NCBI GenBank assembly: GCA_003511885.1
Contig: DOIX01000284.1
Span: 1-19,810, forward strand
From: Cyanobacteria bacterium UBA11153
GTDB lineage: Bacteria > Cyanobacteriota > Cyanobacteriia > Cyanobacteriales > Coleofasciculaceae
DNA: 19,810 nucleotides
Direction of reading: 5' to 3'
This document shows, piece by piece, positions 540-13,124 of the stretch. Every line of letters starts with the position of its first letter. Position 1 is the stretch's first letter. The position numbers and the translations under genes are program-made. The notes beneath the pieces are model-generated. The model saw nothing but the letters and a program-made list of their open reading frames with translations. It made no database searches and was not told the DNA's origin.

Positions 540-1292
540 ATGCTGCTACATTTAATGACTTGGACAGAAGTGGAAGAGTATTTAAAGGTATCCCAAGGGA
601 TTATTTTACCGATTGGCTCAACGGAACAACATGGACAAACTGGATTAATTGGCACTGATACGATTTGCGCTGAAGGGATAGCGCGGGGTGTGGGTGAAAT
701 GACGAATACTGTGGTTGCGCCGACGATTAATGTGGGGATGGCACTCCATCAAGCGGCATTTCCGGGTGCGATTGCGCTGAGACCAAATACTTTAATTGAG
801 TTGATTCAAGATTATCTTACCAGTTTGGCTAGAGCTGGGTTTACTAAATTTTTCTTTGTTAATGGTTATGGTGGCAATGTGGCTACGCTGAGGGCGGCGT
901 TTGCGGAAAGTTATAGTTATCTAACGGATTTACATATTCCCAATGCTGAGAAGGTTGAGTGTAGGATTGCTAACTGGTTTACTTGCAATTCTGTCTATAA
1001 ATTAGCCAAAGAATTATATGGGAGTTTAGAAGGTTATCAGGCTGCTCCGGGCGAGGTGGCGGTAACTCAGTATTTTTATCCAGAAATTATCAGTAAAATG
1101 CCTGTGATGGCAGAGGTAGGATTGCCATATCCAGTATACAGTACAACTCGTTTCCGCGATCGCTATTCTCATAGAGGAAGAGGTTACGATCCTGCTATGG
1201 CGACACCGGAGGATGGTAAAATATTTTACGATTTGGCGGTACAGGAATTGAGTGAGGTTTATTTGGAGTTTATCCATTCAGCCGCAGCTTAG
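540..1292 (+). CDS. Creatininase-family amidohydrolase with altered metal ligand
   Basis: The 250-residue protein belongs to the creatininase family, metal-dependent hydrolases that cleave amide bonds in cyclic or small substrates. The signature IGSTEQHG (about residues 26-33) supplies the Glu and His ligands, and GTDT (about 38-41) the bridging Asp. ALHQAAFPGAI (about 69-79) matches the family's substrate-loop region. The second metal-binding motif, normally NGHGGN, reads NGYGGN here (about 109-114), so the usual His ligand is Tyr. Length is normal for the family and there is no signal peptide, so it is probably cytosolic. The ATG at 540 has only a weak purine stretch upstream (GCGAGAA). Its TAG overlaps the stop of the convergent gene at 1289. 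The true substrate is unknown; relatives include creatininase, FAPy deformylase and the mycofactocin peptidase MftE. Family call secure, activity uncertain. Confidence 0.9.
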   Translation: MLLHLMTWTEVEEYLKVSQGIILPIGSTEQHGQTGLIGTDTICAEGIARGVGEMTNTVVAPTINVGMALHQAAFPGAIALRPNTLIELIQDYLTSLARAGFTKFFFVNGYGGNVATLRAAFAESYSYLTDLHIPNAEKVECRIANWFTCNSVYKLAKELYGSLEGYQAAPGEVAVTQYFYPEIISKMPVMAEVGLPYPVYSTTRFRDRYSHRGRGYDPAMATPEDGKIFYDLAVQELSEVYLEFIHSAAA

Positions 1293-3073
1293 TCCCTTGC
1301 TATATCTGCAATGGAAGCAATGAGGCGATCGCAATCTGCTTTTTTTCTGACTGCGAGTCGGAAAAATGCGCCATCGCCATGGAAGCGACTGGAAACGTCT
1401 TTGACGTAGATGGACTGCTGTACAAGCAATTTCTCGGCTAAAGCATTGGCTTGAGGGCGATTTAAGCGTAATTTGGTGAGGAGGAAGTTACCGCCACTGG
1501 GGAAAACTTTCTCGACAATGGGGAGAGATTCGAGCATTGTAGCAAAGCGATCGCGGTCTTGGGCTGTCTGGTCAAAGGATTTTGCGATCGCCTGACGGTG
1601 TTTTAAAATAATCTCTAGAAAATGTTCGGCGATTGAGTTGAGATTCCAAATCGGAATATTTTCACGCAAAAATTTGTTAAATTCTCGATTACAAGTATAA
1701 GTATAACCCAGACGAATACCAGGTATACCTAGAGTTTTACTCAGGCTTTTAATAAGGATAATATTAGGTAAAGGATCTTGTTCTAAGAATGAAACTAAGC
1801 TGGGTTGATTGGAAAAGTCGATGAATGATTCGTCAACGATAATAAATTTATCTGGATTCGCCTCGGCTAGTCCAAAAATCCAGTCTGAGATGAGGGTTGT
1901 TCCGGTTGGGTTATTGGGATTGACAAAAACTATAACATCGTAAGAGTCAATCCTATTAAGAAGTTTATGACCGTTAATTCCCACTTCATCGAAATAATAT
2001 TCTGCTTGGGGAAAGATTCGGCTATATTCGCCAAAAGTAGGGCTGGGCAGGAGAATCCGCTGTCCTGCAAAGAAATGAGCCAAGATGGGATAGATTTGAG
2101 CCGCACCATTAAGTACTGTCACGTTTTCTTCTCGACATAATAAATAATAGGCTAGTTTTTGATTGAGAATTTCCTGGCAACTGCCATAATTTTGGATTAG
2201 TGCGGGTAATCCATTGCGCAATTCAGAAATAACTGCACCTGTAGGAAAATACATGTTTCGGATGTAGCAGAAATCTAATAAATCGTAATTCCAGTAACTC
2301 CCGTGGGATTTTTGAACTAATGAGTAGCGATTGGCTGAATCAAAGATGTAGTTAGCCGAGTCGAAGTCATTTGGATCGTCTAATTCTGCCCAGTTATAGC
2401 CTTCTAATATTTCGGCGTGGATAACTTCTCGCTGCATAGTAATAATAATACCCAGAATAACTTCATAGTAACACTGAGAATCGATAACTTTGGCATAGTA
2501 AGTTAAGAGATTTTTGAAAGTACCTTGGCAAAACTCTTGAGAAAACTTATAAATATTGAGAGTTTTGTATTTATCGGCAAAGTTAAAATCCGATCCTTGG
2601 AGGTGAGGTGGGATAACATTAGTGACAATACCATCCACTACTGTAACGACTGTACCATCCATTCCCGTCCGGTAGCGATCCAGGAGTGCAATATTAGGAT
2701 GAGGAGAGGTAAATAGCCTGGTAAATACAGAAGATTCTACGACTAAATCGCTTTCGATTAGTATAATATCATCATCTATTTCTACTTTCTCCATTGCTAG
2801 TGCCAAGGAACAGATATTATTGGTTTCTCCATAGCGATGGTTGTGGATAAAGTGGAAATCTATCGCTGGGTGATGAGCGATGAGGTGTTTTTCTACCTCC
2901 TCAGCTCGATAACCTGTTACAATGGTAATGTGAGTGACTTGATTGGCAACTAGTTGGTCAACTAGACGATCGAGAATAGTGCGATCGCCAATTTTTAACA
3001 GTGTTTTATGAGTTGCTAAGGAAAGGGGACGCATCCGTTGTCCGGAACCTGCGGCGAGGATAATTGCTTTCAT
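1289..3073 (-). CDS. LicC-like nucleotidyltransferase fused to HisC/CobD-like PLP enzyme
   Basis: The 594-residue protein has two domains. Residues 1-245 form a sugar/phosphocholine-type nucleotidyltransferase: the loop LAAGSGQRMRP (6-16) with K23 binds NTP, IESD (106-109) is the likely metal-binding acidic motif, and NWAELDDPNDF (227-237) matches the W-x-E-x-D signature common in LicC-type enzymes. Residues about 250-594 form a class I/II PLP fold: NPNNPTGT (385-392), DES (414-416) whose Asp contacts the PLP ring, SLSKTLG (443-449) with Schiff-base K446, R454, and FRLAVR (571-576) for substrate carboxylate. Both active sites look complete. PLP relatives include HisC transaminases and CobD-like amino-acid-phosphate decarboxylases. 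I infer that one domain makes a phosphorylated amino compound and the other activates it as a CMP or CDP derivative for the LicD proteins nearby. The substrate, and transaminase versus decarboxylase, cannot be told from sequence alone. Confidence 0.9.
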   Translation of the reverse strand: MKAIILAAGSGQRMRPLSLATHKTLLKIGDRTILDRLVDQLVANQVTHITIVTGYRAEEVEKHLIAHHPAIDFHFIHNHRYGETNNICSLALAMEKVEIDDDIILIESDLVVESSVFTRLFTSPHPNIALLDRYRTGMDGTVVTVVDGIVTNVIPPHLQGSDFNFADKYKTLNIYKFSQEFCQGTFKNLLTYYAKVIDSQCYYEVILGIIITMQREVIHAEILEGYNWAELDDPNDFDSANYIFDSANRYSLVQKSHGSYWNYDLLDFCYIRNMYFPTGAVISELRNGLPALIQNYGSCQEILNQKLAYYLLCREENVTVLNGAAQIYPILAHFFAGQRILLPSPTFGEYSRIFPQAEYYFDEVGINGHKLLNRIDSYDVIVFVNPNNPTGTTLISDWIFGLAEANPDKFIIVDESFIDFSNQPSLVSFLEQDPLPNIILIKSLSKTLGIPGIRLGYTYTCNREFNKFLRENIPIWNLNSIAEHFLEIILKHRQAIAKSFDQTAQDRDRFATMLESLPIVEKVFPSGGNFLLTKLRLNRPQANALAEKLLVQQSIYVKDVSSRFHGDGAFFRLAVRKKADCDRLIASIADIARD

Positions 3074-3316
3074 TGTTTTTAATGGCTAAATAAATAGGTT
3101 TTTTGAAGATTTGATGAATTTATTAGTATTTTGACCCCACTCTCTTGATATTTATGTTAATTGTAGTACAGGTTAGGCAACAAATGGAATTTCTCTGGAG
3201 AATGATTAGTGTTGGGACTGGAGATGGAGGATCGGGTTGATGGGATCGTACTCTCTTTGCATTTAGGCTAATTGTAGGTTAGAAATGAGTCAAGACTTAT
3301 TTGTTTTATATCATAC

Positions 3317-4018
3317 ATGAAGATCGAAAATAACTGGTATACGATTTGGAATCGCAGGAATCAAACGGGGACATTCAAGTCTACTCTAGCATCGTTGATA
3401 GCCGCAGACGGGTTTGATACAGCTTATGGAGGTATTGAAGAATCGGCTTGGATGGAATACGTTCAACACCTAACTGCCAAGCTGGAAATTAATCGGGATG
3501 ATTCAATATTTGAAGTAGGCTGTGGTGCGGGTGCTTTCCTCTATCCTTTTTACCAACAAGGAAATCCTGTGGCGGGAATTGATTACTCAGAAAATTTGGT
3601 AAAGATTGCTAAAGATACTATGCCAAAAGTAGCGATTAGCGTGGGTGAAGCGATTGATATTTCAGGAAAAAGTCAATTCAATGTCGTCTTGTCTAATGGA
3701 GTTTTCCTGTACTTTCCAAATTATGATTATGCTGGAGATGTACTCCAGAGCATGGTAAAAATTGCTAAGAAAAGTATCGGGATATTTGAAATCCCCGATT
3801 TAGGGAAGAAGCAGGAAGCATTGAAAATGAGAAAAGGGATGATAGGAGATGCTGAATATGAGGAAAAATACCGAGGCTTAGACCATTTGTATTTTAGCAA
3901 GGATTGGTTTCAAGAAGTCCTAGCGGCTGAAGGGGTGAGGGTGAAGATTGAAGATCAAGATATCCCAGGCTACGGTAACAGTCAGTATCGTTTCAATGTT
4001 TTCATTTATAAGATTTAA
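3317..4018 (+). CDS. Class I SAM-dependent methyltransferase
   Basis: The 233-residue protein has a Rossmann-type methyltransferase core. Motif I is FEVGCGAGAF (65-74), the acidic end of strand 2 is GIDYSENL (87-94), a third acidic position lies in EAIDI (111-115), and FNVVLSNGVFLYF (121-133) fits motif IV. There is no membrane segment. The methyl acceptor is not visible from the motifs. The gene diverges from the nucleotidyltransferase/PLP fusion across 243 bases and leads towards a LicD-family gene, which makes a small cytosolic metabolite such as an aminated head-group precursor or an activated sugar plausible; this is inference. No clear Shine-Dalgarno precedes the ATG, but no other start fits better. 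The 243-base spacer shows no repeat or clear promoter. Confidence 0.88.
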   Translation: MKIENNWYTIWNRRNQTGTFKSTLASLIAADGFDTAYGGIEESAWMEYVQHLTAKLEINRDDSIFEVGCGAGAFLYPFYQQGNPVAGIDYSENLVKIAKDTMPKVAISVGEAIDISGKSQFNVVLSNGVFLYFPNYDYAGDVLQSMVKIAKKSIGIFEIPDLGKKQEALKMRKGMIGDAEYEEKYRGLDHLYFSKDWFQEVLAAEGVRVKIEDQDIPGYGNSQYRFNVFIYKI

Positions 4019-4064
4019 TTGATTTAGTAAAATTTCCCAATCATTACTTTGAGGAAGTTTATCG

Positions 4065-4150
4065 GGACTTACGTAAACTATCTATCTGTATGGTGCATTA
4101 TGCGTAAGCTAACGCACCATCCACTATTGGTAGCGTGACTGCGTAAGTCC
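4065..4150. repeat. MITE-like palindromic element, about 86 bp
   Basis: The outer arms GGACTTACG (4065-4073) and CGTAAGTCC (4142-4150) are perfect inverted repeats. Inside, 4090-4100 and 4110-4120 pair as a second stem (ATGGTGCATTA against TAACGCACCAT, one mismatch, 9-base loop). Elements with ends like GGACTTACGCA are familiar to me from cyanobacterial spacers. It fills much of the gap between the methyltransferase and LicD genes and may separate their transcription. Confidence 0.7.
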
Positions 4151-4244
4151 TATTTATTAAGGATAATTTATTGTGTCAATTAAACATGGGAATCAAGGGT
4201 GATATGCTCCTAGGTTTATATTCATAGACAAACAGAAATAGGGT

Positions 4245-5051
4245 ATGAAATATACAAAATATTGTACAAGGAATACACTCCGATGTGAAGAAAATATGGG
4301 CAGCCCCAACTATCGATATTCCTCTTACGGAAAGAATAGCCCTATTTGTTGTACTAGCCATTTAGTCAAAATCTTATTCTTTGTCACTTCTCTGTTGGAA
4401 GAGCATAATATTCCCTATTTTATTTGTTGGGGAACTCATTTAGGCGCTGTCAGGCATCAAGGATTAATTCCCTGGGATACAGATACAGATATTGGTATTT
4501 TTACTGAAGATTACGAGAGAGTCAAGAATCTGACTTCTACGATAAATGAAAAAGAATTTTGTTTGCGTTACTCGAAATCAACAGGATGTTTAACAGCTTA
4601 TTATAGCCAGATAAATGAGTTACATCTAGACATAGAAATTTGGGAAAAACAAGGAGATAAGATTGTATGGGACAACTATTGTATTGAGTATAATGAGATG
4701 TTTCCACTTAAAAAATATAAGTTTTATGACAGATATTTATTTGGACCAAATAGCTTAAATTACCTCTTCAGTTATTATGGTGCAGACTGTTTAGAGTCTG
4801 TTAAAAAACAATGGATGTATTGGGATACACGTCTATGGAATCCTAATCTAACGAATCGAGAAACTTTCAAATTGATGGATAATGCACCAGCACCAATTGA
4901 TTTGGAGAGAAACTTTGAAGAAGAACAACAAAATTTTAGTATGCAAGATCTAATCTATCAAAAGATAATTTTGACAATTAATTCAACCAAGCTGTGGAAA
5001 TTACTCATATTTTGGGTGCAATTCAAAAACAAGCTAACTTTGAGAAAATAA
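4245..5051 (+). CDS. LicD-family phosphotransferase
   Basis: The 268-residue protein carries the LicD/fukutin-type nucleotidyltransferase-fold signature: CWGTHLGAVRHQGLIPW (61-77) followed by the acidic triad D78-x-D80-x-D82 and a later ELHLDIEIW (125-133), giving the third metal-binding region. LicD proteins move phosphocholine or related groups from CDP donors to sugars. No signal peptide is seen; two Cys pairs sit near the N-terminus (C7/C14 and C35/C36). The start is uncertain: the ATG at 4245 has AGGG touching it, and the internal ATG at 4296 would remove 17 residues without touching the conserved core. The GT2 gene follows after 16 bases, so the two are probably co-transcribed. It shares its core motifs with the first domain of the convergent 483-residue protein. 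The family is clear; the transferred group is unknown. Confidence 0.85.
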   Translation: MKYTKYCTRNTLRCEENMGSPNYRYSSYGKNSPICCTSHLVKILFFVTSLLEEHNIPYFICWGTHLGAVRHQGLIPWDTDTDIGIFTEDYERVKNLTSTINEKEFCLRYSKSTGCLTAYYSQINELHLDIEIWEKQGDKIVWDNYCIEYNEMFPLKKYKFYDRYLFGPNSLNYLFSYYGADCLESVKKQWMYWDTRLWNPNLTNRETFKLMDNAPAPIDLERNFEEEQQNFSMQDLIYQKIILTINSTKLWKLLIFWVQFKNKLTLRK

Positions 5052-5067
5052 TGCCCATATATTAGAG

Positions 5068-6051
5068 ATGGATACGAATATAAATCAACCTTGGGTTACT
5101 TGGCTAATGCCTGTAAAAAATGGTATGCCTTATTTACCAGAAACATTAGCCTCAATAGAGGCACAAACTTACAAAAATTGGCAAATTCTGGTTTGGGATA
5201 ATGGTTCAAACGATGGTACATTGGCAGAGCTACATAAGTGGATTCCTTCACGTTTACCCGGTAAAATAATTGAAGGAAAACCCTTGAGTGTTGGTGGTGC
5301 TTGTGCTGAATTAGTAAAACAGTGTGAGACAGACTTAGCCGCCCGCATTGATGCTGATGATGTAAATTTACCCGAAAGATTAGAAAAACAAGTTGCTTTT
5401 TTGCAAGCACACCCAGACATAGCAGTTGTCGGTAGCGGTGTTTTTACTATAGACGAAGAAGGAAATACGCTTGAGAAGCCAAATAAATTTCCACTCCATC
5501 ACAAAGATATTGTCTACCATTTGCTTGTAGATAACGCTATCAACCACCCCACTGTTGTCTTCAGATGTTCAGTTATTTTAGAGGTTGGCAACTATCGAGA
5601 TATCTTATATATGGAAGATTTAGATCTTTGGTTAAGAGTTGCTCAAAGTTATAAATTAGCAAATATACCAGAATTACTGGTAAAGTATAGAATTCACTCA
5701 AGAAGTAGCACTCAAATGGCAATTGCCCAAAATAAATTATTCGATCAAACCAATAATTGCTGGGCAGAATATGCTCAGTCATTATATGGCTTATCAAGAA
5801 GAGATGCCGAACAATTGCGATCAAAAAAGCACCCTTTGGCTTTGATTGCTTTGTTCAAAATTGCAAATTACTTAGGGCATTCTCATGGAGATAATTGGTG
5901 GGGTATCTGGCAAGAAAAGCACTTTATTATTTCTGGGAGGGCAGTTATCGCTAACAAAGATATTATTTCCCGAATCCTTTGGGCTATTCTTTGGTATTGG
6001 AGTCAAAAACAAAATCCTCTTATGTACGGGCAAAATAGAGATAAAATATGA
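5068..6051 (+). CDS. GT2-family glycosyltransferase
   Basis: The 327-residue protein is a GT-A fold, family 2 glycosyltransferase. WVTWLMPVKNGMPYL (9-23) is the N-terminal nucleotide-binding strand, VWDNGSNDGT (42-51) the next, and IDADD (94-98) contains the DxD-type metal/nucleotide motif. YMEDLDLWLR (181-190) matches the ED-x-x-LW-x-R acceptor-side motif with the likely catalytic acid. An aromatic C-terminal stretch near 300 could touch the membrane but is not a clear transmembrane helix. It transfers a sugar from an NDP donor to a growing glycan on the cytosolic side. It lies 16 bases behind the LicD gene and ends just before a terminator-like hairpin. Donor and linkage cannot be predicted. 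Confidence 0.92.
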   Translation: MDTNINQPWVTWLMPVKNGMPYLPETLASIEAQTYKNWQILVWDNGSNDGTLAELHKWIPSRLPGKIIEGKPLSVGGACAELVKQCETDLAARIDADDVNLPERLEKQVAFLQAHPDIAVVGSGVFTIDEEGNTLEKPNKFPLHHKDIVYHLLVDNAINHPTVVFRCSVILEVGNYRDILYMEDLDLWLRVAQSYKLANIPELLVKYRIHSRSSTQMAIAQNKLFDQTNNCWAEYAQSLYGLSRRDAEQLRSKKHPLALIALFKIANYLGHSHGDNWWGIWQEKHFIISGRAVIANKDIISRILWAILWYWSQKQNPLMYGQNRDKI

Positions 6052-6065
6052 TAGAAGTCTGGAAT

Positions 6066-6084
6066 ATAGCTAAAAAGCTATTTT
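6066..6084 (+). terminator. Small terminator-like hairpin between convergent genes
   Basis: ATAGCT (6066-6071), an AAAA loop and AGCTAT (6076-6081) are followed by a T-run to 6084. It begins 15 bases after the GT2 stop, so it can end the + strand transcript. The same stem overlaps the TAG stop of the - strand gene at 6070-6072, where no T-run follows. The stem is short, so strength is doubtful. Confidence 0.5.
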
Positions 6085-7521
6085 CTTAGCAAATCGGTAA
6101 ATTTTTTCGAGAAAAGGTTTGCCTGAGAAGAGAAATTGTAAAGCTTTGGCTGATAGAAAAATTGAAAAACCCCAGCGCGTGTGGAGAGTAATAACTTCAC
6201 CAATAATATTTTCAATTGCTAGCCAAATATCTCCGTCGCCGGGAAAATCACTGGTGAGTAAAATTTTACCTTCTGTAGTCACTTCCACTACCCGTTTAAT
6301 TGAAAGCAATCCTTTCTCTTCAACCAAGACAATCATTCCGGTTTGGATTGAAAGATTGATTTTTTTGACAGTAATCCTGTCGTGATAGGGAGTCAATAAA
6401 TGATAAGTCCACGAATATGGTAGATATCTATATTTTAGCCAAGTCTCATTGAGTGATATTTCTATTTCTCCCTGTCGCTCCAATTTTTGAGTTAGTAAAG
6501 CAAGTTTTTTATTAGTATTAAAAGCAGTAAATTCGGGTTCTTGCCAAAACGAAGTGCCATATAAGTAAGCTAAATATTTTTGATATTTCTGTGGAATAGG
6601 ATATTTTTCTCCTCGAAATTCTACTGATTCTAGGTGAGAAAAAAAATCACTGTAATAAGGGGTTTTACCGCAAATCCATCGATATCCTTTTATCTGTTGA
6701 ATTAAACGAGGTTTTTGGATAACCTCAACGATCACTTTTTCCCCATTGCGGAGAATAACAGTATTCCATCTTGGAATGCTAGAAACTTTGAATGGTTGAA
6801 ATCCGAGTTGATATAATTCTGGCATTAATGCTAATATTTTGCTTTTTTCTTCGATATAAGTGCCAATTATAATCCCGATGTCATCCTCGCTAGCTTGATG
6901 GGATGTCACAATATCTAAGCAAGTTGTTTTAGCCAAGAAAAACTTAATTTCGTTCTCGGAAAAAACTTGATTGATTAATCTTAAGTTTTCGTGACGTATT
7001 TCCCATTGTTTTTGGCTAAATTGGAGGTTCATTGTATTGTGATAATCCCAAAAGTCTTCAATTGGTTGTTGCCATGTCGAACCATATATATAGAGGAGAT
7101 AGGCAATGGTATTTTTAGGTATTTTATAAATTTCTCCTAAAAATTTAATAGACTCTAATTCGCTAAAAAAATCTTGTTCTATGAAGTCATTATCGGTTAT
7201 CCAGCCGATAATATCTTGTCCTTTTTTAACAGGCTTCACCAAGAAAATATCGATATATTCTTTTTTTCTCCCTAGTCTTATTGTCGTAGAAGTCCAAGGA
7301 ATAGGTTGAAAACCTAGAGCTTTTAATTCAGGAATTAAGGCAGTAACCCGTTTCCTATCTTGAATATGGACTTCAATATCTGTGTCGTCATCATGGGCGA
7401 TAAAATCTTGCTCTCGGATTGCGCCTAAACAGGTTCCCCAAGCTAACCAAAAGGTAATTTTATGCTTATCTAAAATTGATTTCAGCAAACTCAAATTTTC
7501 TTTGGCTATTTCTCTGTTCAT
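6070..7521 (-). CDS. Tandem LicD-domain protein with S24/S26-like C-terminal tail
   Basis: The 483-residue protein has three parts. Residues 1-165 are a LicD domain with intact motifs: WGTCLGAIREQDFIAH (28-43), acidic D44-D45-D46-x-D48, and YIDIF (89-93). Residues about 175-335 are a second copy, clearly homologous (FFSELESIKFLGEIYKIP at 118-135 against FFSHLESVEFRGEKYPIP at 293-310; LIPELKALGFQP against LMPELYQLGFQP), but its active site is worn: GT is TT (199-200), DDDTD is EDDIG (212-216), YIDIF is IVEVI. Residues about 365-445 resemble a signal-peptidase-type S24/S26 fold: GMIVLVEE (395-402), SIKRVVEV (407-414), LLTSDFPGDGD (421-431), ENIIGEVITL (437-446). K409 sits where type I peptidases have the catalytic Lys; S370 is a possible but weak Ser counterpart. 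The first domain is probably the active transferase; the tail's role is unknown. No signal peptide. Confidence 0.82.
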   Translation of the reverse strand: MNREIAKENLSLLKSILDKHKITFWLAWGTCLGAIREQDFIAHDDDTDIEVHIQDRKRVTALIPELKALGFQPIPWTSTTIRLGRKKEYIDIFLVKPVKKGQDIIGWITDNDFIEQDFFSELESIKFLGEIYKIPKNTIAYLLYIYGSTWQQPIEDFWDYHNTMNLQFSQKQWEIRHENLRLINQVFSENEIKFFLAKTTCLDIVTSHQASEDDIGIIIGTYIEEKSKILALMPELYQLGFQPFKVSSIPRWNTVILRNGEKVIVEVIQKPRLIQQIKGYRWICGKTPYYSDFFSHLESVEFRGEKYPIPQKYQKYLAYLYGTSFWQEPEFTAFNTNKKLALLTQKLERQGEIEISLNETWLKYRYLPYSWTYHLLTPYHDRITVKKINLSIQTGMIVLVEEKGLLSIKRVVEVTTEGKILLTSDFPGDGDIWLAIENIIGEVITLHTRWGFSIFLSAKALQFLFSGKPFLEKIYRFAKKIAF

Positions 7522-7566
7522 AAGAATTTACCAGATAACAACAGGCATAAATATTATAACTAATAT

Positions 7567-8487
7567 TCAAAAGCCAAGCAATGACATCAAATAAGATTTA
7601 ATGGCTTTAAGATGTAACCTGATCCCTGAAATATATTTGCTATTGCGAATCATTGCCCTTCCTTCTTTTATCCACAAGTAAGGGAAAAATCGATATTCCC
7701 ATAACCAGGCTAATTCAGCATATTTTGCTTTTGCTTCTTCTGGTATTTCTCTTCCTTCTTTCCATTTAGTAATTAGCTTTTCCATCTGGATTTCAAACTT
7801 CACTGTTGTTTGTGAAGTCTGCTGAGAATGTCGGCGATAATAGTACAAATTTTGAGGAATAAAATGTACTTCACTTAATAATGCTACCTGAATAAATAAA
7901 TCTATCCCTTCACCTCCTTGCCCCAACCACTCAGCCCATCCGGTTGTCTTTTCATAAACCAAACGTCGCACCATCGCCATTGCTTCGGGAATGCAATCAA
8001 ATCCTACAGAAATAAATGAAGTTTCTGGCGTTTGATATGGTAAATTTTGGATACCAAATTTTGTGGGAATACGTCTGGGAGTTTTGGCTGTTTTGATAAT
8101 TTTATCCTCGGTATCAATTAGATAATAATCGCAGAAAACTAAACCGACGTGAGGATGCTCTTCAAGATAGTTAACCATGATTTCTAGTATCTTTGGATCT
8201 AAGGAATCATCTGGATCGAACCATAATAAGTATTTACTGTCAGGAGAAGATGCTTTAAAACCATTATTTCTCGCATTTTGTAATCCCCCATTAGGCTGAT
8301 TAATTAATCTAATCCGCGAGTCTTTTTTCGTGTAATGTAAAATTATTTGCTTGGAATTATCGGTACTGCCGTCATTAACTATTATCTGTTCCCAGTCGGT
8401 AAAAGTCTGGGCTAGCATACTATCAATGGCTCTAGCAATGTATTTTTCTTGGTTGTAGCAGGGGCTAATTATACTAATTTTGGGCAT
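7567..8487 (-). CDS. GT2-family glycosyltransferase
   Basis: The frame is open from 8595, but the ATG at 8487 begins exactly at the conserved MPKISIISPCYNQEKYI strand, so I use it; the 36 residues further upstream come from the flanking repeat region. The resulting 306-residue protein has IIVNDGSTDNS (35-45), NGGLQNARNNG (66-76) and the DxD-type motif WFDPDD (89-94). GEGIDLFIQV further on is the likely acid region. Two short aromatic-rich helices near the end may rest on the membrane. It transfers a sugar from an NDP donor to a surface glycan. It lies 45 bases upstream of the LicD-tandem gene on the same strand and is probably co-transcribed with it. No good Shine-Dalgarno precedes the start. 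A hairpin array separates it from the next GT2 gene upstream. Confidence 0.9.
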   Translation of the reverse strand: MPKISIISPCYNQEKYIARAIDSMLAQTFTDWEQIIVNDGSTDNSKQIILHYTKKDSRIRLINQPNGGLQNARNNGFKASSPDSKYLLWFDPDDSLDPKILEIMVNYLEEHPHVGLVFCDYYLIDTEDKIIKTAKTPRRIPTKFGIQNLPYQTPETSFISVGFDCIPEAMAMVRRLVYEKTTGWAEWLGQGGEGIDLFIQVALLSEVHFIPQNLYYYRRHSQQTSQTTVKFEIQMEKLITKWKEGREIPEEAKAKYAELAWLWEYRFFPYLWIKEGRAMIRNSKYISGIRLHLKAIKSYLMSLLGF

Positions 8488-8846
8488 AATCGTATTGGAA
8501 AATAAAATATATGAGATTTCACAGCCTTCGTTACCATTTGACAGTCGCGACAACCCGACAGTGGTTAAAACCACTGTCTTATAGCTAAAGTCCATTGAAA
8601 TGGACTGAAATTCTGATATTGAAATCTACTAAAATTTAGTTTTACCCCTCCCCTGCGAGGAGAGGGGAGGCAGAAATCTTTCTCCCCCTTCCCTGGCAAG
8701 GAAGGGGGCTGGGTGGTTAGGTTTTTCCCTAATTTCAATGGACGAAAATGATCGTTCCCAGTCAGTTTTAACTGACTTAAGCTATAAGACAGGGATTTTA
8801 ATCTCTGTCTGATTAGGCTGAAACTCAAACAATTAATTCTCTGCAC
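8488..8846. other. Gene-free spacer filled by hairpin repeats
   Basis: The 359 bases between two same-strand GT2 genes hold the hairpin array at 8557-8809 and no supported gene. A 93-codon - strand frame at 8565-8846 crosses the hairpins and encodes low-complexity sequence, so I do not count it. Any read-through transcript of the glycosyltransferase run would carry this structured stretch. Confidence 0.6.
8557..8809. repeat. Composite array of six hairpins with inverted outer halves
   Basis: Six stems follow one another: 8557-8566/8569-8578 (GACAGTGGTT, perfect), 8589-8596/8599-8606 (AGTCCATT, perfect), 8647-8654/8663-8670 (CCTCCCCT, perfect), 8684-8692/8700-8708 (CCCCCTTCC, perfect), 8760-8767/8770-8777 (AGTCAGTT, perfect) and 8788-8797/8800-8809 (GACAGGGATT, one G-U pair). 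The outer halves mirror each other: CTGTCTTATAGCTAAAGTC on the left reappears on the opposite strand at the right end with one change. The whole therefore looks like a large inverted repeat with a GC-rich double hairpin at its centre. Confidence 0.8.
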
Positions 8847-9731
8847 TTACTTACCTCTTACCAACTCAAACAGTTTGAACAAAAAACCTTGAGGATGAAA
8901 TATCACTAACCATAATAAAAACTTGGCAGATTTGAGTGGATTGGTTTTCAAATTAAACTTAGCCGCTTTCAAGTGATAAAGTAAAGCCGCATCTTGACGT
9001 ACTTTCTTGGGAATTATCTCCCAATCCCAGTACCTTCTAATTACTGCTGCATGTTGTTCTGCTACCATTGCTAATTGAGAAGTTAAACTGGATGACTGTT
9101 TTTTGCGATAACTTCCATAGATACCGGGAATATAAACAAATTTCAACCCAGCGGCTGCTATCCTTAACCAATAATCTAAATCCTCTGCTGCTTTGAGATT
9201 AGTTGCAAAATAACCTACTTTTGCCGGAATACAGCTTCTCATCACAACTACATTACTCGCGATGTAGTTTTTTGCCAAGAGACTCCCAGGAAACTCAGTG
9301 ATATCCTCTGGAGAAGGTCCCCATATATCGATAACTTTATTGGTTGCATCCTGAAACATTTCCACAGTAGAGTAAACTAGATCGCAACCAGTTTTATTGA
9401 TGGTATTAACTGCTGTTTCCAGATGATGTGGTTTCCATAAATCGTCATAATCGAGGAAAGCAAAATATTCTCCCTTTCCCAGCTTCATAGCTGTATTTCT
9501 AACCGCACTAACTCCTTGATTGTACTCGTGGCGAATATATTGCACCCTATCTTCCCCAACTTCTCTAGAAAATTCTTTGACAATTTCCTCCGTGCGATCG
9601 CAAGAAGCATCTTCGACTACAATAAGTTCCCAGTTGGTATAAGTTTGCCCTTTAATCGTCGCGAGAGATTCTGGAATAATTTTTTCCGCATCATAAGCAG
9701 GCATAATGATACTGACTAGAGATTTATTCAT
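8847..9731 (-). CDS. GT2-family glycosyltransferase
   Basis: The 294-residue protein begins with SLVSIIMPAYDAEKIIPESL (4-23), has VVEDASCDRT (38-47), GVSAVRNTA (73-81) and the DxD-type motif FLDYDDLW (92-99), then an AEDLDYWLR acid/acceptor motif near 182. This is a complete GT-A family 2 enzyme of normal length. Hydrophobic residues near the C-terminus (LLWLVIFHPQGFLFKLF) could attach it to the inner membrane face. Its start codon overlaps the end of the upstream GT4 gene by 8 bases (ATGAATAA), which suggests translational coupling and a shared role in the same glycan. Donor and acceptor are unknown. Confidence 0.92.
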   Translation of the reverse strand: MNKSLVSIIMPAYDAEKIIPESLATIKGQTYTNWELIVVEDASCDRTEEIVKEFSREVGEDRVQYIRHEYNQGVSAVRNTAMKLGKGEYFAFLDYDDLWKPHHLETAVNTINKTGCDLVYSTVEMFQDATNKVIDIWGPSPEDITEFPGSLLAKNYIASNVVVMRSCIPAKVGYFATNLKAAEDLDYWLRIAAAGLKFVYIPGIYGSYRKKQSSSLTSQLAMVAEQHAAVIRRYWDWEIIPKKVRQDAALLYHLKAAKFNLKTNPLKSAKFLLWLVIFHPQGFLFKLFELVRGK

Positions 9732-10854
9732 ATTTAGTAATACCCATAATATTAAGATAATTTTCGGTAGCAGCTTCTAAAGTAAACTGCTGCAACCAAT
9801 CTGAATCTACAGACTTAGTATTCCCAGTTAAGACTCGCAAAATTGCTTCAGCCATTGCCTCACTATCCCCTACTGCTACTAACTCCCCATACTTACCATT
9901 ATCCAGAATTTCTGCCGGACCGCTAGGGCAATTTGTTGATACTACTGATGTTCCCAGTGCCATCGCTTCTATCAACACAGTCGGCAAACCCTCACAAATT
10001 GAAGATAAAACAAATACTGAAGATTGTGCCATATAAGGATATGGATTATTGACAAAACCAACTAAATCAACATCATCTTCTATTCCCAAATCATCCACCA
10101 TCTTCATCAGATAATTCCTTTCTCCACCATCACCTAAAATTACTAATCGAGATGGCTGCCTCTGACGCACTTTAGCAAAAGCTTGGATAAGTGTAGGAAA
10201 GTCTTTTTGTTGCACCAACCTCCCTACTCCTAAAATTATAGGAACTTCTTTTTCCCCAAACCAAGGATGATCCAAATTAGATTCTGCTTCAATTAATAAA
10301 TGAGGATTCCATACAGGATTATAGATAGTTTTGATCCAACCAGGTTGCAGATGCAAGTAACTTTCCAACTCTCGCGCTAACCCTTTCGATACGGCAATAA
10401 TACGATCGATTTTGGGATAAATACATCTCATGGCTAGAGGTAATAACTCTTCCTGCAATTGATTCCGTCTATTTTGTTTGTCAGATAAAGAAATATGTTC
10501 GACGAAGGCTAACTTAACCGAAGATAGAGAGATAATTTTTGCAAATGCTGCCACCACATTACAAGTAAATAGATGACAAACTAATACCTCCGGCTTTTCC
10601 TCCCGTAAATAACCTATTAGTGGTGAAATAACTCTCAGACAACTACTCAAGCGCGGCTGAATTGGTATGTCAAAATCGATAACTCTTACTCCTGCTGGAA
10701 TATCATCTAAAAACTGCCCTTCAGCCTTGGCAACAACTAAATCTAAAGGTATCCCTTTCATCGCTAATCCTTGCAGCAAGTTTAGTGCTACTCGCTGCAA
10801 GCCGCCTCCATCTAAGTCTGGAATGATAAATGCAATTCGTGGTAATTTATTCAT
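9724..10854 (-). CDS. GT4-family glycosyltransferase
   Basis: The protein (376 residues from the ATG at 10854) is a GT-B fold, family 4 retaining glycosyltransferase. The N-terminal half opens with RIAFIIPDLDGGGLQRVAL, whose glycine loop binds acceptor and diphosphate. The C-terminal half has ILGVGRLVQQKDFPTLIQAF, FVLSSICEGLPTVLIEAM with the E-x7-E motif, and VVSTNCPSGPAEILDNG. A TTG two codons upstream (10860) is possible, but the ATG is preferred; neither has a strong Shine-Dalgarno. It is a close paralogue of the gene at 11028-12251: the C-terminal third matches nearly word for word (GKYG-LV-VGDSE-MA-AILRVL). It overlaps the GT2 gene downstream by 8 bases. The role is sugar addition to a lipid-linked or surface glycan; the specificity is not predictable. 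Confidence 0.92.
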   Translation of the reverse strand: MNKLPRIAFIIPDLDGGGLQRVALNLLQGLAMKGIPLDLVVAKAEGQFLDDIPAGVRVIDFDIPIQPRLSSCLRVISPLIGYLREEKPEVLVCHLFTCNVVAAFAKIISLSSVKLAFVEHISLSDKQNRRNQLQEELLPLAMRCIYPKIDRIIAVSKGLARELESYLHLQPGWIKTIYNPVWNPHLLIEAESNLDHPWFGEKEVPIILGVGRLVQQKDFPTLIQAFAKVRQRQPSRLVILGDGGERNYLMKMVDDLGIEDDVDLVGFVNNPYPYMAQSSVFVLSSICEGLPTVLIEAMALGTSVVSTNCPSGPAEILDNGKYGELVAVGDSEAMAEAILRVLTGNTKSVDSDWLQQFTLEAATENYLNIMGITKYE

Positions 10855-10917
10855 TGCCAAGATTAAGTATCAATCCTACACCTCTAACCAGAATATCGCG
10901 ATTAAAATAATCAAAAA

Positions 10918-10974
10918 CTAAGTCAAATATTCGATTTCACTAAAAAATGGAATAACTACACTAATTTTTGGCGA
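10918..10974 (-). pseudogene. Remnant of a GT2 glycosyltransferase N-terminus
   Basis: Read on the - strand from 10974, the frame gives SPKISVVIPFFSEIEYLT and then a stop at 10918-10920. PKISVVIPF is the typical first strand of GT2 enzymes and closely resembles the start of the intact gene at 8487. There is no ATG in place (CTATCG precedes CCA) and no DxD region follows. I read it as the decayed end of a deleted glycosyltransferase gene between two GT4 paralogues. Confidence 0.55.
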
Positions 10975-11027
10975 TAGGAAACAGTTTATCCAAGTAATCT
11001 CCCACCGCTGCTGTCAAGAGTCACCAT

Positions 11028-12251
11028 TTATTTTCTAGCCAAAATACTCCCTTTTTTATTCACACCCAAAATCTCCAAATATTTTTGCACAGAATTTTCT
11101 AAAGTAAACTGTTTCAACCAACCAGAATCAACCCTTTTCGACTCACCCGACAAAACCCGCAAAATCGCCCCCGCCATCCCCTCACTATCTCCAACTGATA
11201 CTAATTTACCATACTTACCTCCAGCTAAAATCTCTTGCGGACCGCTTTCACAATTAGTAGAAACTACAGAAACTCCCACTGCTAAAGCTTCGATTAAAAC
11301 AGTTGGCAATCCCTCCCAAACAGAAGACAAAACAAATAATTTTGCTCGCTGCATATAAGCAAAAGGATTATCCACAAAACCCATCCAAGCGATATCCTCT
11401 TCTATCCCCAATTCCCGCGCCAAAGCTTTCAGTTTTTCCTCCTCTCTCCCACTGCCTAAAATCATTAATCGTGCCCTTTTTAATTGCCTTACTTTAGCAA
11501 AGGCACGAATTAAAGTGGAGAAATCTTTTTGCGCTACCAGTCTACCTATACCCAAAATTACTGGCACTTCGCCCGGTTGAAACCAAGGATGATCGACAGT
11601 TTCTTTTGCTTTTACCAATAAATCTGAAGTAATCACTGGATTATAAATAACTTCAATCTTATCTTTGCCAATACTAGTTATCTGAGATAAATCCTCAGCT
11701 ACTCCATCAGAAACAGTCACAATTCCATCAGCCCTAGGATAAAGAAATCTTGCGGTTATAGGAATAAATCGCGCCGAAACCTGTTCCACTTTTGCTGCTT
11801 CTACAGAAAGGGTAGTATGTTCTGAAACAATAACACGAGTCCCTACTTTAGCTAGATGTTTAGCTATAATCGCAATTTCATTGGGGTAGTGGGTGGCAGA
11901 AAGCAACGCCAAAGGTTGCTCTTGTTTGAGGTAAGCTATTAACTTGAATAGACTACCCGTAGATGCTAAACCTGTGGGGAGGTTGAATATGCGATCCTTT
12001 CCAAAGTTGGCAGCATTAAAATCAATTAACCTGATGTCTTCCGGTACCTTATCTAGATATTCTCCTTCTGCCTTGGTGAGCAATAAATCAACTTTTATAC
12101 CTTGATTAGCTATACCGCAAGCTAAGTTTAACATTACCCTTTCTGCTCCTCCACCGACAAGGTTGCGGAGGAATAAAGCAACGCGAGGCTGACTTGGGAA
12201 AGAGGTAAAAATAAGGGGATATTTGTATGACTTAGCAATATTCAATATCAA
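11028..12251 (-). CDS. GT4-family glycosyltransferase
   Basis: The 407-residue protein is a GT-B, family 4 glycosyltransferase paralogous to the gene at 9724. Markers in order: RVALFLRNLVGGGAERVML (23-41), VSEHTTLSVEAAKV, VTVSDGVAEDL, ILGIGRLVAQKDFSTLIRAF, FVLSSVWEGLPTVLIEAL with E-x7-E, and VVSTNCESGPQEILAGG. The start is a TTG at 12251 preceded by AAAAGG with 4 to 5 bases spacing; no ATG lies before the conserved core, so the TTG is the best choice, although the exact start is uncertain. It heads the - strand glycosyltransferase run, so a promoter is expected in 12252-12500, but none is clear by eye. The tandem paralogues probably add successive or alternative sugars to the same glycan; this is inference. 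Confidence 0.9.
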   Translation of the reverse strand: MILNIAKSYKYPLIFTSFPSQPRVALFLRNLVGGGAERVMLNLACGIANQGIKVDLLLTKAEGEYLDKVPEDIRLIDFNAANFGKDRIFNLPTGLASTGSLFKLIAYLKQEQPLALLSATHYPNEIAIIAKHLAKVGTRVIVSEHTTLSVEAAKVEQVSARFIPITARFLYPRADGIVTVSDGVAEDLSQITSIGKDKIEVIYNPVITSDLLVKAKETVDHPWFQPGEVPVILGIGRLVAQKDFSTLIRAFAKVRQLKRARLMILGSGREEEKLKALARELGIEEDIAWMGFVDNPFAYMQRAKLFVLSSVWEGLPTVLIEALAVGVSVVSTNCESGPQEILAGGKYGKLVSVGDSEGMAGAILRVLSGESKRVDSGWLKQFTLENSVQKYLEILGVNKKGSILARK

Positions 12252-12722: not shown

Positions 12723-13124
12723 CTAATCTAGAAAACCCATTAAATATGCGTCATCATCAATAAAATTGGAAGCGATGGGGCGATTCCCCATAATCATTTG
12801 TACGTCAGAAAGTTTGATAGCACTACTAGCAATGGGACGATTTCCGGATACAGAGATGACATCCCATACCTTCATACTGCTAGCCGCAATCGGGCGCTCG
12901 CCCATCGCAGAGATTGTGCCAATCACCTCAAAACTGCTAGAATCAACGGGACGGATTCCAGAAATCGATACTTGTTCGCTAATATTCAGGGTACTGATGG
13001 CGATGGGGCGATTGCCAGGAAGAGCAACCGATGGTTCAACCAAAACCACTCCTCCTACAGATGTTCCTGTGGTTTTTTCCTCAAGTGCTGTTGCACCTGC
13101 GCTGCTTTTATTATCCTTACTCAT
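12723..13124 (-). CDS. Small protein of five 19-residue GNRPIA repeats
   Basis: I do not recognise a named family. The 133-residue protein has a polar, low-complexity N-terminal third (1-36, rich in Ser, Thr, Gly, Val). Five units then start exactly 19 residues apart at G37, G56, G75, G94 and G113 with the consensus G-N-R-P-I-A-S-S, followed by alternating hydrophobic and polar residues (for example IKLSDVQM). The last unit ends in an acidic tail, IDDDAYLMGFLD. There is no signal peptide, membrane helix or Cys. The start is well supported: AGGAG at 13131-13135 lies 6 bases before the ATG. The alternating pattern would suit stacked short beta strands; a repeated precursor peptide is an alternative I cannot exclude. 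It lies alone between the glycosyltransferases and petA, with repeats on both sides. Translation likely, function unknown. Confidence 0.8.
   Translation of the reverse strand: MSKDNKSSAGATALEEKTTGTSVGGVVLVEPSVALPGNRPIAISTLNISEQVSISGIRPVDSSSFEVIGTISAMGERPIAASSMKVWDVISVSGNRPIASSAIKLSDVQMIMGNRPIASNFIDDDAYLMGFLD

Follow-up and report, generated by a model that had tools for sequence, protein, structure and literature searches.

A cyanobacterial gene cluster with a fused LicC/PntC-like and CobD-like protein predicted to supply a choline-independent CDP-activated head group

The routes to phosphocholine decoration named for bacteria in a 2023 survey start either from imported choline, as in the Lic-1 system (LicA-LicB-LicC-LicD), or from phosphatidylcholine, and the survey mentions phosphocholine-expressing species to which it assigns no known route (PMC10434233). 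A related architecture is that of PntC-AEPT from Treponema denticola (Tde1415, PDB 6PD1/6PD2), in which a LicC-like cytidylyltransferase is fused N-terminally to a pyridoxal phosphate (PLP) enzyme supplying its amino substrate, namely a class V 2-aminoethylphosphonate (AEP) transaminase that works on phosphonates. PLP decarboxylases tied in published descriptions to ethanolamine phosphate include SMUL_1544 of Sulfurospirillum multivorans (6OUX) and Cj1436, proposed to act in cobamide synthesis and capsule amidation, respectively (PMC4585668, PMC11800397). We analyzed a 19,810-nucleotide stretch of DNA, hereafter the window, from Cyanobacteria bacterium UBA11153 (contig DOIX01000284.1, assembly GCA_003511885.1). 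Its central gene encodes a fusion of a LicC/PntC-like nucleotidyltransferase and a CobD-like PLP domain, clustered with a gene for an S-adenosylmethionine (SAM)-dependent methyltransferase, two LicD-family genes and glycosyltransferase genes; the open reading frames (ORFs) and domains of this cluster, as outlined in a sequence-only reading, were confirmed. We propose that the fusion is probably a bifunctional enzyme acting in a choline-independent pathway to head groups, which leads from phosphoserine to cytidine diphosphate (CDP)-ethanolamine, followed by N-methylation and LicD transfer to a glycan, the route that the sequence-only reading had preferred and that best fits the evidence below.

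In this pathway, the CobD-like domain would decarboxylate O-phospho-L-serine to phosphoethanolamine, which the LicC/PntC-like domain would couple to cytidine monophosphate (CMP) to give CDP-ethanolamine. The adjacent methyltransferase would place one to three methyl groups on the aminoethyl nitrogen, most likely in the CDP-linked form, and LicD would move the resulting (N-methyl)phosphoethanolamine to a presumed glycan acceptor made by the neighbouring glycosyltransferases. The fusion is like PntC-AEPT in its domain order and in an ESDL motif with the amine-side Glu, and unlike it in having a class I/II CobD-like PLP part and in residing in a genome without a phosphoenolpyruvate (PEP) mutase above cut-off. 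With Lic-1 it shares a predicted CDP-activated head group from a LicC-like enzyme and a LicD transferase; unlike in Lic-1, the same polypeptide is predicted to produce the amine. SMUL_1544 is the closest solved sequence to the PLP domain, but its 393-aa chain in 6OUX is too short for both domains, and Cj1436 is likened here by its published description only.

The fusion represents a large protein family that is so far annotated but unstudied. A protein search, which scored the 7995 candidates sharing the most words, yielded 3230 matches in the database (E<=0.001); those listed, 120 in number, were 53-100% identical to the query over 95-100% of its length, with Microcoleus, Chitinivibrionales, Chitinispirillaceae, Terriglobia and Anaerolineae among their named sources. 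When one genome per species was scanned, at least 514 fusion-encoding stretches were obtained, of which the 80 best (L018-L097) together with the window form the set of 81 loci used throughout this study; these 80 span many phyla, archaea included. The family is thus widespread in bacteria and archaea yet rare around the window's own lineage, where a full-length fusion was found in 2 of 97 relatives (the genome of the window itself and its congener G001) and, at E<=1e-100, in 2 of 386 sampled genomes of the cyanobacterial phylum. Two more distant relatives of the fusion (L116 and L117) were found in genomes of ~1.9 Mb.

The N-terminal part of the 594-aa fusion (1289-3073 on the minus strand) matched NTP_transf_3 (1.2e-11) and NTP_transferase (2.7e-11), both inside residues 2-122. 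A profile built from 24 N domains of the family ranked LicC first among solved structures (1jyk, 73 bits), followed by PntC (6pd1, 64 bits), 4y7t (49 bits) and then the sugar nucleotidyltransferases. It is because of this profile ranking, rather than of the single-sequence search given below, that we group the domain with LicC and PntC; it appears closer to these than to the sugar-1-phosphate nucleotidyltransferases, in keeping with the LicC-like assignment made at the outset. Residues E107, D109, E204, E230 and D232 were invariant in 81/81 loci, and D109, E230 and D232 aligned by sequence with the metal site of LicC, although the E216/D218 stretch was aligned at a non-significant score. Of the LicC residues, D107 and D218 are presumably metal-binding acids. 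E216 is named as one in the description of PntC-AEPT, which also places Glu104 and Glu196 of Tde-PntC beside the primary amine of AEP and remarks that LicC carries a smaller Asp at that position, which may leave space for choline (PMC6697681). Fusion E107 aligned with Glu104 of Tde-PntC. From these positions, phosphoethanolamine or another small primary amine should be activated by the fusion in preference to phosphocholine, and a PntC-type Glu107 makes it more likely that methylation comes after activation. The ESDL motif was also present in a stand-alone nucleotidyltransferase of the L114 AEP cluster, and PEP-mutase-linked nucleotidyltransferase domains in L114 and L118 have YGDV.

The C-terminal domain matched Aminotran_1_2 over residues 295-588 (1.6e-29), the only Pfam class matched, with no class V match. 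Its profile scored highest against SMUL_1544 (6oux, 165 bits), 3ftb (157 bits) and Porphyromonas gingivalis CobD (3fkd, 137 bits), ahead of S. enterica CobD (108 bits) and HisC 1fg3 (93 bits). The PDB title of 6oux reads 'Structure of SMUL_1544, a decarboxylase', and in a proteomics study SMUL_1544 is the proposed source of ethanolamine phosphate for norpseudo-B12 (PMC4585668); Cj1436 is described as converting serine phosphate to ethanolamine phosphate within a surface-glycan (capsule) locus (PMC11800397). NCBIfam placed CobD (173.7 bits) before HisC (141.4 bits), both below cut-off, and the fusion did not reach the equivalog cut-off of 290.55 bits of TIGR01140 (CobD, threonine-phosphate decarboxylase). 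Structure comparison gave tied CobD and HisC matches and did not separate the two types. At three marker positions derived within this analysis (Phe for the HisC Tyr, W-x-x-N and a second Arg), the fusion has Phe 417, Trp-x-x-Asn at 476-479 and Arg 576 (RxAxR), as do S. enterica CobD and SMUL_1544 but not HisC 1fg3. Across the 81 loci, F417 and W476 were constant wherever readable, N479 gave way to Ser (8 loci) or Gly (1 locus), and R576 to His (1 locus) or Lys (2 loci). These markers are imperfect: 3fkd, deposited as CobD, carries Tyr and Gln instead at two of the three positions, 3ftb, deposited as HisC, has Phe and Trp-x-x-Asn, and Phe and Trp were common to 10 of 18 other PLP proteins of this genome and its relatives, including L100, the best match to the CobD model in this genome. 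Taken together, the domain is predicted to decarboxylate O-phosphoserine.

The methyltransferase is tied to the pathway of the fusion. A profile built from 13 clustered methyltransferases, leaving out that of L061, recovered 14 of the 81 loci at E<=1e-50; the match after these had an E-value of 7.7e-12. In 13 of these 14 loci the gene lay within four genes of the fusion gene, and in the remaining one (L061, Syntrophaceae) it was itself fused, so that a single 839-aa ORF comprises the LicC, PLP and methyltransferase parts. A search with the methyltransferase region of L061, covering proteins of about 461-1468 aa, gave eight proteins, all with a PLP domain and seven with a nucleotidyltransferase as well; these seven LicC-PLP-methyltransferase proteins were 830-848 aa long and came from several sources, so the triple fusion is recurrent and not an assembly error. 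The order fusion-methyltransferase-LicD was found in L042 (Pedobacter sandarakinus) and L054, and the order fusion-methyltransferase-TagF-like, with a weak TagF-like match, in L020. The proposed reaction is like that of the phosphoethanolamine methyltransferases (PMT/PEAMT); PEAMT was the top PDB sequence match at just 27-30 bits per domain, a generic class I similarity on which we claim no membership, and PEAMTs were among the top folds in a structure search, tied with others.

The same methyltransferase family also occurs in phosphonate gene sets. It was detected in 7 of the 386 genomes of the cyanobacterial phylum (E<=1e-15): two have a close fusion (G000 and G267), in G234 LicD, methyltransferase and a fusion relative are consecutive, and in G329 the methyltransferase stands head to head with a fusion relative. 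In G008 (as a truncated ORF with 62% identity to that of the window) and in G091, it lies within sets of PEP mutase, phosphonopyruvate decarboxylase and AEP aminotransferase, each above the curated cut-off. In G370 it stands apart, with no fusion, PEP mutase, decarboxylase, AEP aminotransferase or LicD recognised in the 14 kb around it, and PEP mutase and LicD are on another contig. With the Methanomicrobiales archaeon locus L069, where PEP mutase, decarboxylase, methyltransferase, AEP transaminase and fusion lie side by side (5246-11785), the family was found in three complete AEP gene sets. PEP mutase above cut-off was present in 33 of the 386 genomes, and PEP mutase above cut-off or a close fusion in 6 of the 7 methyltransferase genomes versus 35/386 in the background (P = 2e-6, ignoring relatedness) or, without the starting genome, in 5/6 versus 34/385 (P = 2e-5, likewise ignoring relatedness). 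A methyltransferase common to AEP gene sets likely has an aminoethyl-phosphorus group as its substrate, and the product of the fusion would accordingly be the phosphate analogue, phosphoethanolamine; on the simplest reading, the fusion module (phosphoserine to phosphoethanolamine to its CDP form) stands in for the AEP module.

LicD, the predicted transferase of the head group, is linked to the fusion across phyla. Using a LicD profile built in this analysis (E<1e-10), we counted 42 LicD ORFs in 40 of the 81 loci, including the window, which agrees with the co-occurrence anticipated by the sequence-only reading; 39 of the 42 independently matched Pfam LicD at E<=0.001. The distance from LicD to the fusion was two genes or fewer in 35 of the 40 loci, versus 12.9 expected under random placement within the locus, and none of 10000 permutations reached the observed 35. 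In 15 loci LicD was the adjacent ORF, always on the same strand (15/15), with a 4- or 8-base overlap with the fusion in seven. A large fusion family with a LicD neighbour recurring across phyla places the make-up of the cluster beyond chance. In the loci without LicD, we scanned 110 neighbour ORFs, of which five matched CDP-OH_P_transf and five Glyphos_transf. LicD, the CDP-OH_P motif (including L030, below cut-off) or a TagF-like cluster was thereby found in 50/81 loci, and with the addition of L020 (weak and below cut-off) and L021, some type of CDP-alcohol transferase was found in 52/81; the types other than LicD, some of them weak, account for 12 loci beyond the 40 with LicD. That three transferase types share a single kind of donor speaks for a CDP-alcohol as the product of the fusion.

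Unlike Lic-1 hosts, the genome of the window gave zero matches to PF01633 choline kinase (APH-type kinases were not searched), which accords with the earlier suggestion of a head group made without imported choline. There were likewise zero matches to PF02666 phosphatidylserine decarboxylase and no PEP mutase above cut-off; the best superfamily proteins scored 128 and 81 bits against a cut-off of 319.55, and the EDKxxxxxNS motif was not found in the stretches that hold them (L098 and L099). Since the genome is 95% complete, these absences are likely but not certain. By the same motif, PEP mutase was present in 1/81 loci (L069). LicD was found in 79 of the 386 genomes of the phylum, 76 of them in families f47 and f55 with genomes of 1.7-2.5 Mb, presumably a non-photosynthetic gut lineage; the other three are G000, G008 and G227. 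Given this near confinement, a LicD-type head-group pathway looks unusual for a photosynthetic cyanobacterium, as had been supposed.

Several observations weigh against the pathway proposed here. The single-sequence search with the N domain ended in a near tie between PntC (39 bits), mannose-1-phosphate guanylyltransferase (37 bits) and LicC (36 bits), its NCBIfam matches were only sub-cut-off and of sugar type, the best being an archaeal GlmU-type model far below cut-off, and 67 of the 81 fusion loci showed no member of the methyltransferase family. The last point favours a cluster in which the fusion and LicD would give plain phosphoethanolamine and the methyltransferase, as a mere neighbour, would O-methylate a glycan sugar, and its fold cannot tell N- from O-methylation; we nevertheless regard this as unlikely in view of the natural LicC-PLP-methyltransferase proteins, the occurrence of the family in AEP gene sets and the association in six of the seven methyltransferase genomes described above. 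The product might also serve a membrane lipid through a bacterial Kennedy-type route instead of a glycan, as CDP-alcohol phosphatidyltransferase-like genes adjoin the fusion in a small number of loci, L043 and L065 among them, but LicD is far commoner near the fusion, and the ten window proteins scanned with Pfam included five glycosyltransferases and no CDP-alcohol phosphatidyltransferase, which leaves this destination with little probability.

As to the amine, the PLP domain might decarboxylate threonine phosphate to 1-amino-2-propanol phosphate or, like Cj1437, transaminate dihydroxyacetone phosphate to serinol phosphate, with the fusion activating the product. It shares a superfamily with the CobD/Cj1437-type enzymes, the NCBIfam ranking and the tied structural matches leave room for such an activity, and enzymes for serinol phosphate and ethanolamine phosphate are described as sharing one capsule locus (PMC11800397); since the domain is closest by profile to SMUL_1544 and not to CobD, and the methyltransferase common to AEP gene sets points to an unbranched aminoethyl group, we consider either substrate rather improbable. 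Least probable of all appears a phosphonate route, in which the PLP domain would transaminate to AEP and the N domain would activate it, as in PntC-AEPT. The two proteins have the same domain order, PntC-AEPT was the top Foldseek match over both domains (template modelling score ~0.4, root-mean-square deviation ~21, with the domains placed differently) and in L069 the phosphonate genes adjoin the fusion. However, that single motif-positive PEP mutase locus has a separate class V AEP transaminase whereas the PLP domain of the fusion is class I/II, and PEP mutase was not recognised in the window's own genome at the thresholds given above. The sequence-only reading had allowed for either an amino-alkyl phosphate or a phosphonate; the phosphate fits the evidence best, and the phosphonate finds no support here.

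In the more distant fusions (L070-L097), mostly from gut Bacteroidales, two other gene types alternated at one place. An octopine-dehydrogenase-like gene directly followed the fusion in 13 loci, with LicD further downstream in eight of these, and an ornithine-cyclodeaminase/mu-crystallin-like gene did so in six other loci, with LicD next in all six; these assignments come from Pfam runs on one member per group. Enzymes of both kinds use amines along with keto acids or imines, another pointer to a free amine on the product of the fusion, and the branch suggests an N-carboxyalkyl ethanolamine phosphate head group. Putting both kinds of neighbour together, we tentatively suggest, with some doubt, a widespread self-contained choline-independent pathway from phosphoserine to a family of CDP-activated zwitterionic head groups, in which the fusion would make CDP-ethanolamine, plug-in tailoring would be performed by the N-methyltransferase (as far as a phosphocholine group) or, chiefly among gut Bacteroidales, by an opine-dehydrogenase-like or ornithine-cyclodeaminase-like enzyme (giving N-carboxyalkyl ethanolamine), and interchangeable LicD, CDP-alcohol and TagF-like transferases would deliver the product to glycans or lipids. 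If this is true, one protein chain that both forms and activates the amine and comes with a dedicated methyltransferase would add a further phosphocholine-type source, presumably needing no phosphatidylethanolamine; phosphocholine-like decoration would be possible in bacteria without the Lic-1 or phosphatidylcholine route, and one shared methyltransferase would join phosphate and phosphonate head-group chemistry. In any case, a large family known from annotation only is now marked for testing.

Table 1. Features of the fusion cluster in the window (GT2 and GT4, glycosyltransferase families 2 and 4; CTP, cytidine triphosphate)
Feature	Position	Strand	Evidence or predicted role
Fusion N-terminal domain, residues 1-250	2324..3073	-	LicC/PntC-like nucleotidyltransferase, predicted CTP:phosphoethanolamine cytidylyltransferase
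Fusion C-terminal domain, residues 251-594	1289..2323	-	CobD/SMUL_1544-like PLP domain, predicted O-phosphoserine decarboxylase
SAM methyltransferase, 233 aa, class I	3317..4018	+	Predicted N-methyltransferase of the aminoethyl group
LicD-family transferase	4245..5051	+	PF04991 1.2e-17; predicted transferase of the phospho-head group from CDP onto a glycan
GT2 glycosyltransferase	5068..6051	+	16 bp downstream of LicD, same strand
Second LicD, longer protein	6070..7521	-	PF04991 8.3e-19
GT2 glycosyltransferase	7567..8595	-	Pfam
GT2 glycosyltransferase	8847..9731	-	Pfam
GT4 glycosyltransferase	9724..10860	-	Pfam
GT4 glycosyltransferase	11028..12251	-	Pfam
Creatininase-family gene	540-1292	+	Convergent with the fusion, 4-base overlap at the fusion 3' end

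Contig C98, on which the window sits, belongs to a genome of 6.65 Mb. A gap of 243 bp separates the fusion gene from the divergently oriented methyltransferase gene, which is followed on the plus strand by LicD and a GT2 gene (3317-6051), and the longer LicD and four glycosyltransferase genes occupy the minus strand up to 12251. Mean predicted local distance difference test (pLDDT) values were 89.4 for the whole-fusion structure model and 92.6 for that of the methyltransferase. Both LicD genes passed the curated PF04991 cut-off, with the match limited to the first ~50-60 of 227 model positions. The closest named relative found for the locus was that of the cyanobacterium Limnofasciculus baicalensis BBK-W-15, whose fusion is 85% identical.

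For the second LicD, which is 78% identical to its L018 homologue, a Pfam scan gave only the N-terminal LicD match and no other family. It contains an internal duplication, in which residues 166-329 are 35% identical to the first repeat of the L018 homologue, and by eye the GxLG...D.D.D motif was not seen in the second repeat. L018 has another gene at the fusion 3' side in place of the creatininase-family gene, and it carries a 150-aa duplicate of the N-terminal part of the fusion (7724-8176) that adjoins the methyltransferase gene and is separated from the intact fusion by two opposite-strand ORFs. YidC-like (60KD_IMP) ORFs were located directly upstream of the fusion in L022 (8490-10004) and L072 (7875-9785), the latter also matching the TagF-like profile. 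Further along the window, a small minus-strand ORF (12723-13124) consists of a repeated motif around GNRPIASS, and its neighbours resemble petA and petC by eye.

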